From positions 186,001 to 250,000 of the forward strand of contig JAFAGI010000007.1 in NCBI GenBank assembly GCA_023422835.1: a stretch of DNA of 64,000 nucleotides, read 5' to 3'. The position numbers and the translations under genes are program-made. Below, piece by piece: positions 29,393 to 39,931 of the stretch (the stretch's first letter is position 1; the number at the start of each line of letters is the position of its first letter). The notes under the pieces are model-generated. The model saw nothing but the letters and a program-made list of their open reading frames with translations. It was not told the origin of the DNA and did not search any database. This DNA is from Bacteroidota bacterium. Lineage in GTDB: Bacteria > Bacteroidota > Bacteroidia > Chitinophagales > Chitinophagaceae.

Positions 29393-30424
29393 ATGAGCAA
29401 CGTAGAAAAATTAAAAGCATTAAAATTAACCATAGATAAAATAGATAAAGATTACGGCAAGGGCAGCGTTATGATGATGAACGAAAAAGGCGTACGCACC
29501 ATTGACGTGATCTCCACAGGTTCCATCGGGCTTGATACAGCATTGGGCATTGGCGGATTGCCAAGAGGACGTGTAATAGAGATCTTTGGCCCGGAGTCTT
29601 CCGGTAAAACCACCATTGCTACCCACGTTATTGCAGAGGCTCAGAAAAAAGGCGGCATTTGCGCCATGATTGATGCGGAGCATGCCTTTGATGCCACCTA
29701 TGCGCAAAAGCTGGGCGTAGATGTAGAAAATCTGTACATCTCTCAGCCCGACTACGGTGAGCAGGCATTGGAGATCGCTGACAGACTGATCCTTTCCGGC
29801 GCTATCGATGTATTGGTGATAGACTCTGTAGCAGCGCTTGTACCCAAAAGTGAACTGGAAGGCGAAATGGGCGACAGCAAAATGGGCTTACAGGCCAGGC
29901 TTATGAGCCAGGCAATGCGTAAACTTACCTCTACTATTTCCAAAACAAATACCGTTTGTATATTCATTAACCAGTTGCGCGAAAAGATCGGTGTTATGTT
30001 TGGTAACCCGGAAACGACAACCGGTGGTAACGCGTTGAAGTTCTACTCTTCCGTGCGCCTGGATATCCGCCGTATTTCGCAGATAAAAGACGGGGACTCT
30101 ACCCTGGGAAGTCGTGTGCGCGTAAAAGTAGTAAAAAATAAAGTGGCGCCTCCATTCCGTACAGCAGAGTTTGACATTATGTTCGGCGAAGGCATCAGCA
30201 AGATCGGAGAGATAATAGACATGGGCGTAGAGCTGGATGTGGTTACCAAAAGCGGCAGCTGGTTCAGCTACGAATCTACCAAACTCGGCCAGGGACGCGA
30301 AGCTGTAAAGCAATTGCTGCTTGACAATCCTGAACTTGCCGGCGAGCTGGAAGCAAAGATACGCGCAAAACTTGCACCATTGCCCCCTGCACCAAAAGCG
30401 GAAGAGAATGAAGAAAAGAAATAG
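29393..30424 (+). CDS. recA: Recombinase RecA
   Basis: 343 aa, usual length. Walker [10 protein letters not shown], Walker [21 protein letters not shown], the L2 loop region with [20 protein letters not shown], and the acidic C-tail (KAEENEEKK). It forms filaments on single-stranded DNA for homologous recombination and triggers the SOS response where LexA exists. Followed by a terminator, then by a decayed sigma factor gene. Confidence 0.98.
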
Positions 30425-31277: not shown

Positions 31278-34073
31278 CTAAAACTTCTTTACCTTGATTT
31301 CTACCTCAGTATTTATGTAGTTGAACTTTAATTCTTTAGCAGGCACATTGTTTTTTACGGTAATGATTTGAGCGTTGTTTGTTATTTCGTACCGGTTATT
31401 CAGTATATAAATCCGGTAATTCCCTTCGCGCAGGTGCAGCATAAAACCGCCTCCCCAATCTGTTACCGTTGTGGTTATTTCCTTAGTTGAAAGATTTTCT
31501 GCATATATGCTTATGCCTGAAACATCTGTTTGCTCCACATCATATTTCTTCTTAGTCTCAATCATGCTGCCTGTGACAGTGTTGACTTTTACAACCGGCA
31601 ACTCATATTTTTTATTTTTAGAAATGAGTACTTTGTTGTTTGATAAAAGACTAAGTTTTTGCCCGTTTTTCTTCACCACAATATTATACTCCTGTTTTGG
31701 AAGATTGGCAAACTTCACAAAGCCCTTCTTGTCTGTTATGGCTACATGCTCGTTTAAATTTACCAGTACATTATCCAATACTATTTCATCGCCATCTAAT
31801 ATATTGTTCTGGTTCTGGTCTTCAAAAACCCTGAATGAAACTTTGCTTGAATTAGATGAACTTAACGTACCAAATATTTTCTTGATGCCAACCTGGAACT
31901 GGGTATTGTTGTAAGTATGGGTATTGTTGTTTTTGGAATATCTTGTAAAGAAAACATTGGCGGTAGCAAACCAATCTTTAGCAATACGATATTCCAGCTG
32001 GTTATTTATAAACTGGTTAAAACCATTATAACTGTTTACATAGCTTATACCCCCGGAAATATTTCCTTTCAATTTTTGATCACGGGTAGAATAATTGTAA
32101 TTCGTATTCAAAGAGTAGTTTCTGAAATTCTTTTCTTGTGTGTTGATAAGATCGTAGGCATTTACCGGGTTTATATCTGCCAAAGCATTTACATTGAACA
32201 TGCCTAGTCTGTAAGACAATAAAAACCTTGCTGCATAAAACGGATCTGTATTATGATTGATAAAAGAAATACCACCATCTGCAATAAAATTGAAATAGTG
32301 TTTGCTGAAACTCTTACTAACATCAAGCTTTAAACGATATGCCCTGTAATCTACATTCAGGTAAGAGTTGTTTATATATTGATAGGTATAATTTGGCAAG
32401 AGGGAATAGCTGAAACCATCTGTATAATTATTGAAACCCGCTTCTACAGTATGATTCACAAAACTGCTTTCATATATCATGAATTCAAAAGGATGATAGA
32501 TAAATTGTGCATTCACATATTTAGGCTTGTTTATTAAACCACTGTATTTGAACAATAAACTTTTTTGTTGCGTAAGGCGATAAGTAACTGCTTCATCAAG
32601 AGATATAAGCCCTCTTCTTAATCCAGCGTAATATGGTGAAGAAAAATAGTTATTTGAAAATAAAGAAATCTTTTCCCCGATCATTTCATAGGAAATGCCT
32701 CCTGCAAAACCCGCATTTGCTAAGCCTTTGGCGCTATGCTCAATACCAAGAGAAGCTTCATGGCTAACACCGCCTTCTATTTTTACGCGGCTGGCAGAAT
32801 CTATCTTAAAGGAAGTGGAAAAACTACCAAGATGTGTTTTTGTGTTTAATAACGGATTTGTATTGTATAAATAATTTACCTGTGCGGGTAAACCGCTACG
32901 CATAGATCTCTGGTACTTTGTACCGATTGTTTTACCAAAGTCAACCATATTATCCAGGCTGCTGTAAAGCATATAATTATTATCTATACCCAGCACTTCT
33001 ATGCTGCTGTTACCGGTAACATTATATCCCAACTTTACGCCTCTGCCGTTCATATTAAAATCATAGTCAGAGCCGTAAATATTTCCCAGCTCAGCAAGCA
33101 TCTTTTTCGATCGTAGCGTTAACCTTGTATCATAGATATTTACATATTTATATTGCGAGAAATAATCTGTTACCGTGTTGAATTCCATCGCTACATTCGA
33201 TGCTATTTGCTGCTGCACATTGCCTCTGAGCCTGTATATATCATTATTTTTATTCAGTCTGTTGTAGGCAGCCTCAATAAAATTTGTTTTGGTATTCAAA
33301 AAATTATTTTGCAATACCTGCCTGTTGCTGGTAAGCGTACGGATAGGAATATTAGAATTAGCTATAAGCCTGTCTTTGGCAATCTCATATGCCATTACCG
33401 ACAATGAATAATCTGTAAAAAAAGTTGTATTGCCCTTTTGCTGCAGATCTATCTTTACCAGTTTTCTTTCACGTGGTTGCAAAATCACATTTATGGATTG
33501 CTGCCTTATAACCAAATTCTGCGAAGGACTTAATGTAAGATGCAATCGTAGGTTTTTGATATCATAACCCGGATTTTCAATAAAAAAACTTACGGCATTT
33601 TCTCTTGCATCGGGATTGTAAAAATTATCGATACCTGAACTGATGATAGCAATATAATCCTGGCTTTCTTTGCTTAGATAATATCTTGCATGCAGCGTAT
33701 CTTTAAGCTGGCCTGTAGTAGTATAATCTACAATAAAATCTATATAGTTATCGCCGGACATAAGCAACTCAATGCCTGCTATCATTTTTGTTTGCAGGTT
33801 CAGAGCCTGGCCGGCATCTACATTTCCTCTAAACCCCGGGAAGAATAGCATATTCGGATATGACTTTACAGGACGAATACTTTCAATCGTGACATTTTTA
33901 GTCTGGTTGTTTTGAATGCGCAAGGTATTGGAAAAAGTTTTTCCCGGTTCTAATAAAATACTATCCTGGGTAAAAAAAGCATAAATATTTTTATTATGTT
34001 GAGCCGATAGGTTAACACTCAAAATAATAAACAAAATTATAGCCGGGATTACTCTAATAATATTTTTGGTCAT
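31278..34073 (-). CDS. Large outer-membrane barrel protein, candidate usher of the pilus-like operon
   Basis: 931 aa. Signal peptide (AIILFIILSVNLSAQ), then two Ig-like stretches (about 30-240, ILLEPGKTFSNTLRIQNNQ; NVILQPRERKLVKIDL), a long part rich in alternating aromatic strands typical of an outer-membrane barrel (about 270-730), and a C-terminal part with an SdrD/carboxypeptidase-regulatory-like domain (VSFRVFEDQNQNNILDGDE, TDKKGFVKFANLPKQEYNIV) and a second such module. Not a recognisable PapC. Because it is last in an operon with a PapD-like chaperone and three pilin-type proteins, I infer an usher-like export or anchoring role. Its ATG overlaps the preceding stop by one base. A generic barrel protein is the alternative. 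Confidence 0.65.
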   Translation of the reverse strand: MTKNIIRVIPAIILFIILSVNLSAQHNKNIYAFFTQDSILLEPGKTFSNTLRIQNNQTKNVTIESIRPVKSYPNMLFFPGFRGNVDAGQALNLQTKMIAGIELLMSGDNYIDFIVDYTTTGQLKDTLHARYYLSKESQDYIAIISSGIDNFYNPDARENAVSFFIENPGYDIKNLRLHLTLSPSQNLVIRQQSINVILQPRERKLVKIDLQQKGNTTFFTDYSLSVMAYEIAKDRLIANSNIPIRTLTSNRQVLQNNFLNTKTNFIEAAYNRLNKNNDIYRLRGNVQQQIASNVAMEFNTVTDYFSQYKYVNIYDTRLTLRSKKMLAELGNIYGSDYDFNMNGRGVKLGYNVTGNSSIEVLGIDNNYMLYSSLDNMVDFGKTIGTKYQRSMRSGLPAQVNYLYNTNPLLNTKTHLGSFSTSFKIDSASRVKIEGGVSHEASLGIEHSAKGLANAGFAGGISYEMIGEKISLFSNNYFSSPYYAGLRRGLISLDEAVTYRLTQQKSLLFKYSGLINKPKYVNAQFIYHPFEFMIYESSFVNHTVEAGFNNYTDGFSYSLLPNYTYQYINNSYLNVDYRAYRLKLDVSKSFSKHYFNFIADGGISFINHNTDPFYAARFLLSYRLGMFNVNALADINPVNAYDLINTQEKNFRNYSLNTNYNYSTRDQKLKGNISGGISYVNSYNGFNQFINNQLEYRIAKDWFATANVFFTRYSKNNNTHTYNNTQFQVGIKKIFGTLSSSNSSKVSFRVFEDQNQNNILDGDEIVLDNVLVNLNEHVAITDKKGFVKFANLPKQEYNIVVKKNGQKLSLLSNNKVLISKNKKYELPVVKVNTVTGSMIETKKKYDVEQTDVSGISIYAENLSTKEITTTVTDWGGGFMLHLREGNYRIYILNNRYEITNNAQIITVKNNVPAKELKFNYINTEVEIKVKKF

Positions 34074-35518
34074 TACAAATTCGTAAAACTATAAATCACA
34101 TTAGTCAGGTAAGTTACACCTGTGGGTTTATTAAACAAAATACCGGTTTGTGATGGTGGTATTGTGTATTTTATGGATAGTTGTTTGTTTAAAACAGGCG
34201 TGGCATTACGGATAATGTTTTGAGACGTGGCTGATAAGGGCTTCGAAATCACCTGTGTTTCGCCCGTACCGTTTTCAACAGTTACAATGGACACAGGAAT
34301 AGATGTAGGCGTAGAATTCAGCGTAAAATAGTTACCGGAGCTTTTCACATACACCTGAAACGGTTTGTTGTTGGTGATATTGATATGTCCCGGCATATTT
34401 ACACTTTTCCCGGTTTGGTAGTCTGCGGAGGTTAAAAAATTAAATACCACTGACTGGTTTTCATCTTTAAGCCGTATATAGCTTATGGCATTGGTAACAA
34501 TGGTTACAGCTATTGTCTTAACATCGGCAACTGAATTATCGTTGCTGCGAGTACGTACATCCAAATTAAATGTGTAGGTCCCTGCTTCAAAAAAATTGCT
34601 TGCCAGCTCAGCCGACAGTATTTTTATTTTTAACGGAACAGAGGTTTTGTTGCCGGCTGCTACCGGCAAGGCAGTTGAATTTAAAGCCTGGTAAGCATTT
34701 GTAAGCGTTTTAGTACTAAAAACTGTATTGTTACTTGTAATTTGTAAAGCAGACAAAGGCCTGGTGGAAGTAACTCCTCCCCCAGCCGGCGTAAAAGTGA
34801 TGGGCGCCTGTCCCTTAATCTCTACAAATGAAGGAACCGTATGCCCTATCTCTAAGTTATTTAATGTTATTTCGTAATCTGTGCCGGTAAAATTTTCCGC
34901 ATTTAAAGCTACAGAATAATTTAGCGTGCTGCTATTCCATACAGTAAAAGCAGGAACGTTAATGTTCATCTTTCCCCCGCCGGACGGTTCTATATCATTA
35001 TATATTAAAGAATGAGGCTGATTATGAACAATATCCGCAGAATAGGTACCCGCTATAAACATATTGGATACAAAACTATTTGCTGCTATTCGATAATTAA
35101 TCATTATATCACCTGAATAAGCACGGCTACCAGCGTATAACGGTTGAAGAAACGATTGGAAACTTGTAGTAATGAATCTTTCCGGTATTGGCCATTGTGT
35201 ACTTAATCCTGAGCTTCCGGGTGAATAACCGGCTATACTTGATAACTGAAAATTAACCAACGAAGTAGGCAAACTATAAATACCGTTATTGTGTATGAAA
35301 TTCTGATTGGTAGAACGCAGCATTACAAATCTATTAATGGTAGTTCTTCTCCAACCTAATCCACCCATAAACAAATAACCGGAATTAAGTGTTGCAAAAT
35401 ATTCAGTTTCGTTTAAAATATTATCCTGAGTTAGATTAAGATCAATTGACTGGGAATTTCCATTAAAAGAATGAAACAGCAAATAGATGATTGCCAGGCA
35501 TTGTAAAACCTTTTTCAT
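34073..35518 (-). CDS. Secreted multidomain protein with pilin-like C-terminal module
   Basis: 481 aa. Signal peptide ending FNGNSQS, followed by a strand with alternating hydrophobics (IDLNLTQDNIL). The middle has Ig-like beta modules (about 180-330). The last 40 residues, LSIKYTIPPSQTGILFNKP then TYLTNVIYSFTNL, mirror the ends of the two small pilin-like proteins of the operon. The size and place between chaperone and barrel protein suggest a tip subunit or adhesin of the fibre (inference). I do not recognise a named family. Confidence 0.65.
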   Translation of the reverse strand: MKKVLQCLAIIYLLFHSFNGNSQSIDLNLTQDNILNETEYFATLNSGYLFMGGLGWRRTTINRFVMLRSTNQNFIHNNGIYSLPTSLVNFQLSSIAGYSPGSSGLSTQWPIPERFITTSFQSFLQPLYAGSRAYSGDIMINYRIAANSFVSNMFIAGTYSADIVHNQPHSLIYNDIEPSGGGKMNINVPAFTVWNSSTLNYSVALNAENFTGTDYEITLNNLEIGHTVPSFVEIKGQAPITFTPAGGGVTSTRPLSALQITSNNTVFSTKTLTNAYQALNSTALPVAAGNKTSVPLKIKILSAELASNFFEAGTYTFNLDVRTRSNDNSVADVKTIAVTIVTNAISYIRLKDENQSVVFNFLTSADYQTGKSVNMPGHINITNNKPFQVYVKSSGNYFTLNSTPTSIPVSIVTVENGTGETQVISKPLSATSQNIIRNATPVLNKQLSIKYTIPPSQTGILFNKPTGVTYLTNVIYSFTNL

Positions 35519-35525
35519 TTCGCGT

Positions 35526-36335
35526 TTATAAACTTAGATTCTTTTCACCTACCCTTACGTTTGCAGCGCTTCCTACTCTTAAAATAGCTACGCCCGCGAA
35601 TTCGCCTTTGTGTTTTTCGGGAATATCGAAGAATACAATTTGTTCCGCATCCGGCATCATAGAAACAGGCACAGGCTCAAGTTTGGTTTCCTCACCTGTT
35701 GATTTATTGGTAATTTCAAAATCTATAGATGAGTCGCTGGTGGTGTTGCCAATATTTTTCACCTTCACAGCTATTCTGTTATACGCCTTATCAGCAATTG
35801 TTACTTTGCCTATATGATTAATAGCCGTAAAGTCAAGATCTTCTTTCGTATTGTTTTCAGGTGTGTAATAAACATGTAAACCAAATTCAAATAAAACTTT
35901 TATACCGATATTATTATTTTTTATGTATTCATCGCTCTGCTGCGCTATTTGTGTAAGCATCAGCATAGAGTTGGTTACTACATTAGTTGCATTTGCTGGA
36001 ACGCTCATCATCACATTTAATTGTTTTGATTCGCCGGGCTGCACGGTTACATTGGTTTCTGAAAGTTTTAACCAACCGGCATTCGACCTGGGTAATGTAC
36101 CCGCATTTGCATACACTTTTTCACCGGTAGAATCCCTGTACCAGTCACTCAAGGTCGCTTTAAAAGCAAAAGGCATTTTACCCCCGTTTGTAATTGTGAC
36201 TGTTTGAGTAGCGCTGCTGCCGGGCCCGCCCGTAAAAAACAACCTGGTAGGAGAAACAGTGATACCCTGGGCATAACTACTTACAATACCGGCAACCAAA
36301 ACAGTTAGGATTAATAACGACCTGTGCATATACAT
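35526..36335 (-). CDS. PapD-like periplasmic pilus chaperone
   Basis: 269 aa. Signal peptide ending SSYAQ. Mature N-terminus ITVSPTRLFFTGGPGSSATQ then TVTITNGGKMPFAFKATLSD is the first strands of a pilus chaperone; Arg31 lies where PapD has its subunit-anchoring Arg, and Lys146 in NIGIKVLFEF may be the second anchor. WLKLSETNVTVQPGESKQLN is the turn before strand E-F. A second Ig-like domain follows (AVKVKNIGNTTSDSSIDFEI). It resembles the chaperones of archaic (Csu-type) chaperone-usher systems. It should cap pilin-like subunits by donor-strand complementation. Confidence 0.75.
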   Translation of the reverse strand: MYMHRSLLILTVLVAGIVSSYAQGITVSPTRLFFTGGPGSSATQTVTITNGGKMPFAFKATLSDWYRDSTGEKVYANAGTLPRSNAGWLKLSETNVTVQPGESKQLNVMMSVPANATNVVTNSMLMLTQIAQQSDEYIKNNNIGIKVLFEFGLHVYYTPENNTKEDLDFTAINHIGKVTIADKAYNRIAVKVKNIGNTTSDSSIDFEITNKSTGEETKLEPVPVSMMPDAEQIVFFDIPEKHKGEFAGVAILRVGSAANVRVGEKNLSL

Positions 36336-36355
36336 TGTTATATAATAATTTGATT

Positions 36356-36425
36356 AAAAAAAAGAGTCTCGTGGAACTTTACTCTGTAAAAATAAAATAA
36401 AGTTTTGTATGAGACTCTTTTTTTT
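36356..36425 (-). terminator. Strong hairpin between pilin-like gene and chaperone gene
   Basis: AAAGAGTCTC (36361-36370) pairs perfectly with GAGACTCTTT (36411-36420), and inside the loop AACTTTA pairs with TAAAGTT. A run of T follows on both strands. It begins about 10 nt after the pilin-like stop and lies inside the operon, so it should let the pilin-like genes be expressed far more than the chaperone and barrel genes. Confidence 0.8.
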
Positions 36426-36434
36426 ATCACCGGT

Positions 36435-36971
36435 TTAGGGTTGTGTAAAAGTATACACTATAGTTTGCTGGTAAGTGCCCTGAGGCTTACCAAGAATATC
36501 TGATTGTGCTTTGGCAGCAGGAATGCTATACTTTACATCAATTGTTTTTATGCCTGGTGTTACGCCTGTTAATATAGGTTGATCAGCTGCTGTGAGAGTT
36601 ACTTTTGTAGCAGTACCACTTCCGGGTGCGGTGGGGGTAATGTCCATAACACCTACAGGAATGATATTTGAACCGTTTTTAAAATTAGCTTCTAATGCTT
36701 TTACGGTCACCTGGAAAGTTTTTGTAGCGGTCACCTTCAAATGTCCGGCAAGAGATACTACCTGATCAACTGTGTACGATGCAGCATTTGGGTAATCAAA
36801 TACAACCGCTGCAGCACCAGGCGTTTGTCCGGGAACAGTTTGATTACCTGGCTCTGTAGTGATAAAGTCAGTCAGATTGATCTTCACGTTAGTAGAAGAT
36901 GTTGCTTGTGCTTGCGCAACGCTGATGAATCCAAAAACAGAAACAGCAGCTAAGATTAAGGTTTTTTTCAT
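36435..36971 (-). CDS. Small secreted pilin-like protein (probable major subunit)
   Basis: 178 aa. Signal peptide ending SVAQAQA, then STNVKINLTDFITTE, an N-terminal strand that could act as donor strand. The body is beta-rich and without Cys. The C-terminus IDVKYSIPAAKAQSDILGKP then GTYQQTIVYTFTQP matches the other two pilin-like proteins and recalls the GTYxDTVTVT ending of spore-coat-U/Csu-type pilins. It lies just before a strong hairpin, a usual position for a highly expressed subunit. Assignment rests on context and end motifs. Confidence 0.65.
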   Translation of the reverse strand: MKKTLILAAVSVFGFISVAQAQATSSTNVKINLTDFITTEPGNQTVPGQTPGAAAVVFDYPNAASYTVDQVVSLAGHLKVTATKTFQVTVKALEANFKNGSNIIPVGVMDITPTAPGSGTATKVTLTAADQPILTGVTPGIKTIDVKYSIPAAKAQSDILGKPQGTYQQTIVYTFTQP

Positions 36972-37029
36972 GTTAATTTTTTTTAATTTTGGGGTTATTA
37001 AATTTTTATATGTTTGTTTGAAATGCCTG

Positions 37030-37608
37030 TTATCGTGATGTCAATGTATAAATTACAGTATTCGAGTACGTTCCCGGGCCAGCTCGTAAAATATGCTGCT
37101 GCGATTTTTCCGGAGATATAGAATATTTAATATTTATATTTTTGTACAAATTTGGATGACCGTTTGTGATCAAAGGCTGGTTGTTTGTTTGTAGCTCTTC
37201 AATAGAATTAAGTATTACATCTTTTGCCTTCACATCGGTATTATCAACTTCCAATTTTACTACAGAAGCAGGAAAGGTTAAATGACTGCCCGATCTGAAG
37301 TTTTCCAAGGCCGCTCTTGCTACCAAATTATAATAAACGGTAGAAGATAATAATAAGTGAGATTGTTTCAATGTAGAAATGCCATTCGTAAAATCATTGC
37401 TATTCTTAAAAATCATATCCACTCTTTGGCCATCAATTTTCTGAGAGGTTAACTGGAAAAAATCGTTCACTATAATATTTATCTCAGCTTTGGCCTCTAC
37501 CTGGGAGAAAGAGATAATCGGAGCAATAAAAAATAAAAAGGATAATGAATATTTTAATTTCAGAATTGAAGCTTGAATCTTTGCATTTTTAATTATATAC
37601 AATTTCAT
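37030..37608 (-). CDS. Small secreted pilin-like protein, first gene of the operon
   Basis: 192 aa. Signal peptide ending IISFSQ. Mature start VEAKAEINIIVNDFFQL resembles the strand at the start of the 178-aa protein. C-terminus INIKYSISPEKSQQHIL then GPGTYSNTVIYTLTSR is the same module. A consensus promoter lies 19 nt upstream of the ATG. It is 58 nt from the second pilin-like gene, with no further promoter seen between them. Confidence 0.65.
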   Translation of the reverse strand: MKLYIIKNAKIQASILKLKYSLSFLFFIAPIISFSQVEAKAEINIIVNDFFQLTSQKIDGQRVDMIFKNSNDFTNGISTLKQSHLLLSSTVYYNLVARAALENFRSGSHLTFPASVVKLEVDNTDVKAKDVILNSIEELQTNNQPLITNGHPNLYKNINIKYSISPEKSQQHILRAGPGTYSNTVIYTLTSR

Positions 37609-37626: not shown

Positions 37627-37657
37627 CAAAATTAGACAGGTTGTACAATATGGCAAA
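37627..37657 (-). promoter_or_regulatory. Promoter of the pilus-like operon
   Basis: On the minus strand TAatTTTG (37634-37627) with TTTG (37657-37654) 19 nt upstream. Both match Bacteroidota consensus. The predicted start of transcription is about 15 nt before the first ATG. Confidence 0.65.
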
Positions 37658-38116: not shown

Positions 38117-39931
38117 TTATTTCAGCTCCTGCAACTCCACCAGGCGTTTATACCTGCCGTTTTCGATCCTGATAAGTTCATCGTGGTTGCCACGTTCTAC
38201 GATCATTCCCTTATCGAGAACTACGATTTCATCCGCATTGCGGATAGTGCTTAGCCTGTGTGCAATAACTATGGAGGTCCTGTTTTGCATCATGTTGTTG
38301 ATAGCGTCCTGTACCAGCTTTTCGCTTTCTGTATCCAGCGAAGAAGTAGCTTCGTCGAGAATCAGAATGGGTGGGTTTTTAATTACAGCGCGTGCAATGG
38401 TTAATCTTTGCTTTTCACCACCGCTGAGCTTGCTGCCGCGGTCGCCGATATTGGCATTATACTGATCTTCCTTTTTGAGGATAAAATTATGGGCATTGGC
38501 AATTTTTGCGGCCTGTACAATGGCTTCCTGTGAAGGGTTCTCCAGGCCAAGTGCAATATTATTAGCAATCGTATCATTAAAAAGTATAGGCTCCTGTGTC
38601 ACAATGCTCATGAGCCTTCTGACAGAATGCAAGGAATAATCTTTAATGTTCACGCCGTCTATCAACACATCTCCACCTGTAACATCATGAAAACGGGGCA
38701 CCAGGTCTGCCAGCGTAGACTTGCCAGCACCCGAAGACCCTACCAGCGCCACTGTTTTGCCTTTTTCTATCGTGAGGTTGATATTTTTCAGGATGGTAAA
38801 TTCATCGTAAGCAAAATCAACATTTCTGAATTCAATTTTATCATTAAAACCTGTAAGCACCTTTCCGTTTATATTATCATCCACTGTCACAGGCGTGCGC
38901 AACACCTCTTCGATGCGTAAAATAGCTGCCGAGCCTTTGTTGAGGTTGCTGAAAGAGGTGCTCAGGGTTTTGATGGGATTGATAACGTTGTAAAAAACGG
39001 CAAGGTAGGTAAAGAAAGTAGAAGCATCCAGGTCTATCTCACGGCCAATAATCAGCCTGCCGCCAAACCACAGAATGCCCACAAACACCATCACGCCCAT
39101 AAACTCTGAAACAGGCGATGCCAGGTCGCGCCGGCGGGAAATCTTATTGCGTGCCGCAAGCAGTTCATCATTGATAGCATGGAATTTTCCCCTTAGAATA
39201 TTTTCTACATTAAATGCTTTGATTACCCGCAATCCGTTAAGCGTTTCATCCAGCACAGATAGAGATTCCCCATGTTTGATGGCCGCTTCATTAGAACTTT
39301 TCTTTAAAGACTTGGATATGCGGCCAAGAATAAAGCCAATGAAGGGAATGGCAATCACAATGGCCAGCGTAAGCTGTGGGCTCAGGTATACCAGGAATGA
39401 AAAAGTAAGGATAATTGTCAACGGGTCTCTTACCCACCCTTCCAGCGCGCCTACTACAGAAGCTTCCACTTCATTCACATCGTTGGTTACACGGCTGATC
39501 AGGTCGCCTTTACGCTTCTGGGTAAAATAGCCGATAGGCAGGTTCAGGATTTTATCGTACAGGTCTGCGCGGAGATTATTCACAATCCTGTTTTTCATAG
39601 GGTTTAATATGTAAACCGATAAATACAGGAACAGATTTTTCAGGAAAATAGCAATCACCAGTATGATGCAGATGATGCCCAGCAGTTGTATATTGGAATA
39701 GCTTTTTATTTTCTGCAAAGCAAATAAGCGCAAATCATCGAGCAGTCGGAAATCTGCAGGCTTGCTAAAGATATCTGATTTTTCTAAAAAAATCAGGTCA
39801 AAGAAAGGCTTGAGCATCCCAAAACTGGCAAGCGCAAAAATGATAGATAATACAGTAAAAACAAAATAAAGAACTATTTTTCCTTTGTACCTGCTCAGAT
39901 AATAAAAAACTCTCGAATATTTCTTCATCAA
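38117..39931 (-). CDS. MsbA-like ABC exporter (fused membrane and ATPase domains)
   Basis: 604 aa. Six membrane helices (about 15-310), including the start SRYKGKIVLYFVFTVLSIIF, then the ATPase: Walker A ALVGSSGAGKST, signature KLSGGEKQRLTIARAV, Walker B ILILDEATSSLD, and IAHRLSTIRNADEIVVLDKG. The closest known type is MsbA, which flips lipid A-core; other lipids or drugs are possible. A -7 box lies 20 nt upstream of the ATG. Transcribed alone. Confidence 0.88.
   Translation of the reverse strand: MMKKYSRVFYYLSRYKGKIVLYFVFTVLSIIFALASFGMLKPFFDLIFLEKSDIFSKPADFRLLDDLRLFALQKIKSYSNIQLLGIICIILVIAIFLKNLFLYLSVYILNPMKNRIVNNLRADLYDKILNLPIGYFTQKRKGDLISRVTNDVNEVEASVVGALEGWVRDPLTIILTFSFLVYLSPQLTLAIVIAIPFIGFILGRISKSLKKSSNEAAIKHGESLSVLDETLNGLRVIKAFNVENILRGKFHAINDELLAARNKISRRRDLASPVSEFMGVMVFVGILWFGGRLIIGREIDLDASTFFTYLAVFYNVINPIKTLSTSFSNLNKGSAAILRIEEVLRTPVTVDDNINGKVLTGFNDKIEFRNVDFAYDEFTILKNINLTIEKGKTVALVGSSGAGKSTLADLVPRFHDVTGGDVLIDGVNIKDYSLHSVRRLMSIVTQEPILFNDTIANNIALGLENPSQEAIVQAAKIANAHNFILKKEDQYNANIGDRGSKLSGGEKQRLTIARAVIKNPPILILDEATSSLDTESEKLVQDAINNMMQNRTSIVIAHRLSTIRNADEIVVLDKGMIVERGNHDELIRIENGRYKRLVELQELK

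Follow-up and report, generated by a model that had tools for sequence, protein, structure and literature searches.

Class 5 (CFA/I) and type 1 (FimC-FimD) chaperone-usher pili combine a PapD-like chaperone, pilins without a G strand, a pilin domain at the C-terminus of the tip protein and an usher barrel. Classical ushers form barrels of 24 strands and hold a plug inside the barrel. Here, we describe an operon of five genes (Table 1) in a window of 64,000 nucleotides from a Chitinophagaceae member of the Bacteroidota (assembly GCA_023422835.1, contig JAFAGI010000007.1, positions 186,001 to 250,000). It probably encodes a pilus that is assembled by donor-strand exchange, with a 931-aa barrel protein as the outer-membrane usher. 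All four of the above components have a counterpart in the operon. In contrast to CFA/I and FimC-FimD, its tip consists of three pilin-like domains only, the barrel has 26 strands, Ig-like N-terminal domains and no plug, the chaperone carries His for Lys112, and no hidden Markov model (HMM) of a subunit or usher matches.

In a literature search of open-licence full texts, we recognised no account of a chaperone-usher pilus in Bacteroidota. A large survey of secretion systems omits these pili, as far as its accessible text goes (PMC4793230). If our reading is true, the lack of a family model for the usher has left unnoticed an adhesive fibre that is carried, in three Bacteroidota families, by 15-31% of the searched genomes.

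Subunits and tip protein

The two small secreted proteins, S1 and S2, share one domain family with the last third of the 481-aa protein (hhalign 99.9), and all of these terminate at the F strand with a conserved Tyr. The 481-aa protein consists of three pilin-like domains in tandem (about 24-188, 190-343 and 346-481), of which the first two carry their own G strand and the third does not. The mature N-terminus of S2, with the donor-strand-like segment STNVKINLTDF, aligns with the G strand of tip domain 2, and S1 has a segment of the same kind, AEINIIVNDFF. Judged by this alignment and the tip model, each subunit appears to be an Ig fold without a G strand and to contribute a donor strand at its N-terminus. 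The best Foldseek match of the tip model is an engineered trimer of the CfaB pilin, and the predicted tip resembles a donor-strand-complemented trimer. A natural tip of three pilins provides sequence-level evidence for donor-strand exchange. These comparisons rest on alignments of 31 of the 75 relatives' tips and of 41 of 47 non-redundant subunits (202 called; six pieces omitted).

Neither Pfam nor NCBIfam names a family for subunits or tip, and hhalign of the subunits against E. coli pilins failed (prob 4-8). No component of a known chaperone-usher system, be it pilin, chaperone or usher, was among the matches listed in PDB sequence searches; WxLIP and TLP emerged, plus NOMO2 and scattered weak matches (for the mixed chaperone profile, for example, acetyl-CoA carboxylase at 0.018 beside WxLIP at 0.0022). 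Residues 5-60 of TLP-1 and TLP-2 (PDB 9ikj and 9ikk, 16 identical chains each) match the subunit profiles at E 1.0e-4 and 4.7e-4, in a region that includes the donor-strand and first-strand motifs. The TLP chains are longer (236-237 aa), and the match is confined to their N-terminal part. They are possibly the solved filament of a relative. Their source organism and paper were not found in open-licence literature, and the TLP fragment had no match in 296 Bacteroidota genomes, a search that lacked a positive control and so shows nothing.

A PapD-like chaperone

The leader of the third protein ends in AQ and the mature part begins GITVSPTRLFF, in agreement with the preliminary description, which had proposed a PapD-like chaperone with SPTRL at its mature start. 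Arg31 (mature position 8) and His154 fall in the columns of what we take to be Arg8 and Lys112 of PapD. We read these columns from an alignment of 49 chaperones drawn from the window family, its relatives and E. coli K-12 (nine sequences). The window-type members are the window protein and 19 of 120 listed homologues (157 found). The Arg8 column holds Arg in 20/20 window-type, 5/7 type-2 and 8/9 E. coli sequences, and in none of the distant sets dchA (0/9) and dchB (0/4). The Lys112 column holds His in 19/20 window-type sequences, Lys in 5/7 of type 2 and 8/9 from E. coli, Gln in 9/9 dchA and Ala or Gly in 4/4 dchB. These counts indicate that window-type chaperones and most of type 2 retain the anchor, which the more distant sets lack. 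By sequence, the protein reads as a PapD-like chaperone with the Arg8/Lys112 anchor, in which His replaces Lys.

HMM searches gave a mixed answer. On chaperone domain 1, PF00345 reaches E 0.0022 and 18.4 bits, below its cut-off of 23; in Pfam, fn3_5 and Motile_Sperm outscore it and WxLIP_PGBD is about equal, all below cut-off. At E ≤ 0.01, PF00345 matches 2/20 relatives and 2/14 in a mixed set. Profile comparison with the E. coli chaperones gave hhalign values of 70.9 for the window type, 90.4 over 210 columns for type 2, 70.9 for dchB and 53.3 for the mixed distant set. Some homologues already bear the names 'fimbrial biogenesis chaperone' (NCBI) or 'P pilus assembly chaperone PapD' (JGI), so the chaperone has in part been recognised before. 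A scan of viral contigs found no relative.

The genes stay together across Bacteroidota

The operon is present in four classes of Bacteroidota, with a member in Saprospiria (L060). A survey of genome contigs with the chaperone as bait yielded 95 relatives, of which 80 were kept. A barrel is encoded at 79 of these 80 loci, a tip-size gene at 76 and all four gene kinds at 71, a grouping beyond what chance would give. The nine incomplete loci lie at contig ends (L002, L005, L006, L028, L041, L056), have broken frames (L047, L062) or have no subunit called (L074); in L003, L047 and L062 the barrel is in pieces and was counted as present. Gene order varies. The order of the window is found in L001 and L003, most Flavobacteriia loci read subunits-chaperone-barrel-tip, and 11 loci, mostly of Sphingobacteriaceae, read subunit-chaperone-tip with the barrel on the opposite strand.

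The reverse search, with the barrel as bait, found 12 barrels in 7/296 evenly drawn Bacteroidota genomes, each lying no more than 2.6 kb from a chaperone match (seven loci read). At family level, the barrel occurs in 22/147 Chitinophagaceae (G002 family), 29/151 Sphingobacteriaceae (G008) and 46/148 Weeksellaceae (G005) genomes, the families being identified through the NCBI lineage of those loci that bear a name. Chaperone and subunit lie within 7.5 kb at 34 of 40 barrel loci, 20 each from Chitinophagaceae and Sphingobacteriaceae; these were hand-picked from 29 and 31 listed places, with most of the strongest matches omitted, and none comes from the 46 Weeksellaceae genomes. Three of the six other loci are near contig ends (L179, L188, L191) and three are not (L187, L190, L192). 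Chaperone and barrel co-occur with either gene as bait.

The chaperone profile reaches further, matching 25/296 Bacteroidota genomes. In 11 of 20 distant chaperone regions an open reading frame (ORF) of 900 aa or more adjoins the chaperone. Five have a chaperone and no such ORF (L142, L145, L146, L147, L151), and ORF calling yielded no chaperone in L135, L137, L148 and L149. The chaperone-like genes of L142, L145, L146 and L147, without barrel or called subunits, share a common gene neighbourhood. A second subfamily (L094-L098) has tips of 341-376 aa and chaperones with both Arg8 and Lys112 (5/5); of the genomes concerned, G005, G230, G115 and G032 hold a window-type barrel too.

The barrel protein as a probable plugless usher

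The structure model and Pfam agree with the earlier picture of a barrel with an Ig-like start and an SdrD/carboxypeptidase-regulatory-like end. Two Ig-like domains (30-252) are followed by 26 barrel strands (265-733; counted by hand on the predicted model) and by SdrD_B and CarboxypepD_reg modules (748-921), the only families above cut-off in Pfam. These modules match NOMO2 in the PDB sequence search (3.1e-8), and both names borne among 12 barrel homologues are taken from them. A conserved ..IxVKxF tail (31278-31300) extends beyond the modules, with Phe931 present in at least 90% of 49 alignment rows (the window protein, 12 proteins and 36 of 75 full-size barrels, those more than 85% alike having been removed).

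An usher-like outer-membrane barrel is encoded together with chaperone and subunits. In Foldseek, the top nine PDB matches of its model are FimD or PapC chains, and the leading barrel of any other kind trails them by over two orders of magnitude. The protein is best read as a divergent, plugless usher lineage. It had been described as no normal PapC and as either a new usher or an anchor; the first statement stands, and of the two options the structural matches favour the usher.

An alternative is that the barrel is an outer-membrane anchor or porin. Subunits linked by donor strands would then assemble periplasmically or at the cell surface and take another way out, for example through the type IX secretion system (T9SS). 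Several points speak for it: PF00577 (Usher) has no match on the window barrel in Pfam, the model has no plug domain (no gap of more than 21 residues between the 26 strands, by hand count), and a porin equals the ushers in Z. The model on which usher function rests is modest (pTM 0.52). Against the alternative stand the lead of the usher chains in Foldseek and the steady association of the barrel gene with those for chaperone and subunits. In addition, Pfam and NCBIfam detect no T9SS C-terminal sorting domain on the window subunits or tip at E ≤ 1. We consider an anchor or porin unlikely. Because PF00577 does not match and a plug is absent, we class the system as one that would work like a chaperone-usher pilus, outside the named usher clades.

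It is distinctly less probable that the operon is a true archaic (sigma, Csu-type) chaperone-usher member that has merely drifted, the kind of pili whose gene content the preliminary description saw mirrored here. Gene content and the F-strand C-termini with their conserved Tyr fit this view, as does a second Bacteroidota family (L152, L154-L156) that links to classical ushers (hhalign 95.7). However, SCPU (PF05229) matches none of the five window proteins, 43 subunits or 32 tips, the plug is missing, and the window-type barrel aligns with the second family in the C-terminal modules only. The broader proposal of a chaperone-usher-type operon with an unusual barrel is retained.

The second family comprises usher-like proteins of 994-1455 aa, with SPOR domains in 3/4. 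These SPOR-ushers have chaperones related to those of the window type (A1 vs dchB, prob 96.3) and related C-terminal modules, align to FimD residues 142-424, and match PF00577 weakly, below cut-off. We take the aligned part of FimD to be the barrel start and plug region. The SPOR-ushers are a link from classical ushers to Bacteroidota. A mixed distant barrel set that includes them reaches hhalign 50.9 against E. coli ushers; the window barrel reached 15 against E. coli ushers and 0.4 against EcpC (single sequence), and both comparisons failed. The barrel of another relative (L136) matches CooC_C ('CS1-pili formation C-terminal') at E 1.3e-5 and 25.5 bits, under the cut-off of 29. PF00577 was above cut-off in 0/20 operon-bearing genomes and 0/296 Bacteroidota genomes (3 weak), with a positive E. 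coli control.

Two further candidates were rejected. Type V pili (FimA/Mfa1) of Bacteroidales are donor-strand polymers whose pilins are lipoproteins matured by a protease. They occur in the same phylum as the window operon, which differs in that S1 and S2 contain no Cys, hence no lipobox cysteine, and that chaperone and barrel are present. T9SS cargo was set aside because Pfam and NCBIfam show no sorting domain on the window's subunits or tip.

Kinship with Gram-positive WxLIP

WxLIP_PGBD matches 13/20 window-type chaperones at E ≤ 0.01; the window protein itself scores 17.9 bits, below the cut-off of 27.3. A profile of mixed window and type-2 chaperones matches EfmWxLIP1 at E 0.0022 over positions 40-262 (223 positions), and the distant set matches it at 0.0028. 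WxLIP_HBD matches 2/9 distant relatives, at E 3.2e-7 (over cut-off) and 7.1e-9, and lies above cut-off in L134; both relatives belong to the set without the Arg8/Lys112 pair. Profile matches thus indicate that the chaperone family is homologous to WxLIP, which is homology and not identity of role.

With the mixed profile, the homology extends over both WxLIP domains (DUF916 and DUF3324). According to the accessible part of PMC10599100, WxL clusters also share the layout of a small and a large partner protein, a WxLIP strand inserts into WxL in AlphaFold2 predictions, and the WxLIP host-binding domain is homologous to bacterial pilins. The words PapD, chaperone and donor are absent from its main text, as far as accessible. 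The homology suggests that a related mechanism of strand donation may operate in WxL clusters, and the link would offer a mechanism for this Gram-positive surface system.

The operon differs from WxL clusters in having no visible membrane helix, no WxL domain and an additional outer-membrane barrel, and a WxL cluster as such was rejected. That it is a diderm version of such a cluster (small and large WxL protein plus WxLIP) rather than a pilus is very improbable: the WxLIP matches and the small-plus-large layout fit, but no WxL-domain family matches any of 43 subunits or 32 tips, the chaperone has no C-terminal membrane helix by eye, and an usher-like barrel is present.

It is possible, though on balance we doubt it, that the pilus operon marks a second, plugless pilus-usher lineage, unrelated in sequence to PF00577, in at least four Bacteroidota classes. 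With a WxLIP-homologous chaperone, strand-donating chaperones with small and large partners would then span diderms and monoderms, and WxL clusters would share the logic of strand donation without an outer membrane. A plugless usher would also test the need for the plug and the classical N-terminal domain.

Proposed assembly

From the computed domain homology, missing last strand, donor-strand alignment, gene co-occurrence and usher-like model, we infer a fibre, chaperone-subunit complexes and the following order of assembly. All five proteins open with a hydrophobic leader whose last residue is Gln (AQ, but SQ in the 192-aa and 481-aa proteins; judged by eye, with no signal-peptide program applied), which suggests that the subunits would cross the inner membrane by Sec. 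In the periplasm, the G1 strand of the chaperone would occupy the groove where the subunit lacks its G strand, while Arg31 and His154 hold the subunit C-terminus. The Ig-like N-terminal domains of the barrel, its C-terminal domains or both may receive the chaperone-subunit complexes. Export would begin with the 481-aa protein as the tip; its sequence opens with the first domain strand, seemingly without a free donor strand. The subunits that follow would each insert an N-terminal extension into their predecessor's groove, and the 26-strand pore would let the growing fibre through.

Operon layout and expression

The ORF listing with translations confirms five genes on one strand with tight spacing: S1 and S2 are 58 nt apart, S2 and the chaperone gene 99 nt, chaperone and tip genes 7 nt, and the tip and barrel genes overlap by 1 nt.

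Table 1. Coordinates of the operon and its putative control elements in the window
Feature	Position	Strand	Basis
S1, minor shaft or adaptor subunit (putative role), 192 aa	37030..37608	-	ORF and alignment
S2, probable major subunit (putative role), 178 aa	36435..36971	-	ORF and alignment
PapD-like periplasmic chaperone, 269 aa	35526..36335	-	ORF, Pfam, profile comparison
Tip protein, 481 aa	34073..35518	-	ORF, alignment, hhalign, structure model
Usher-like outer-membrane protein, 931 aa	31278..34073	-	ORF, Pfam, structure model
Bacteroidota-type promoter motif TTTG-N19-TAATTTTG	37627..37657	-	18 nt upstream of first ATG
Long hairpin then T run, between S2 and chaperone genes	36336..36434	-	Folding energy

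By our reading of the translations, the operon is flanked by recA (29393-30424, +) and an ABC exporter gene (38117-39931, -). The pattern TTTG-N19-TAnnTTTG, presumably the Bacteroidota promoter type, occurs 4 times in the window against 0.8 expected, and 0/100 shuffles reach 4. The hairpin folds at -28 kcal/mol (z -7.0 vs 200 shuffles) and is probably an attenuator or 3' stabiliser that sets an excess of subunits. At the same junction of 75 related loci, z is ≤ -2 in 30 and ≤ -3 in 16; since the median z is only -1.5, the hairpin is not constant across the family.

Regulatory genes adjoin some of the related loci. An AraC-type regulator (HTH_18) lies upstream in L094, and a LuxR-type gene adjoins the barrel in L036. 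In two Flavobacteriia loci, the gene after that of the tip encodes a hybrid PAS/HisKA/HATPase/receiver kinase (L007, 15096-17843; L049, 15086-17845).
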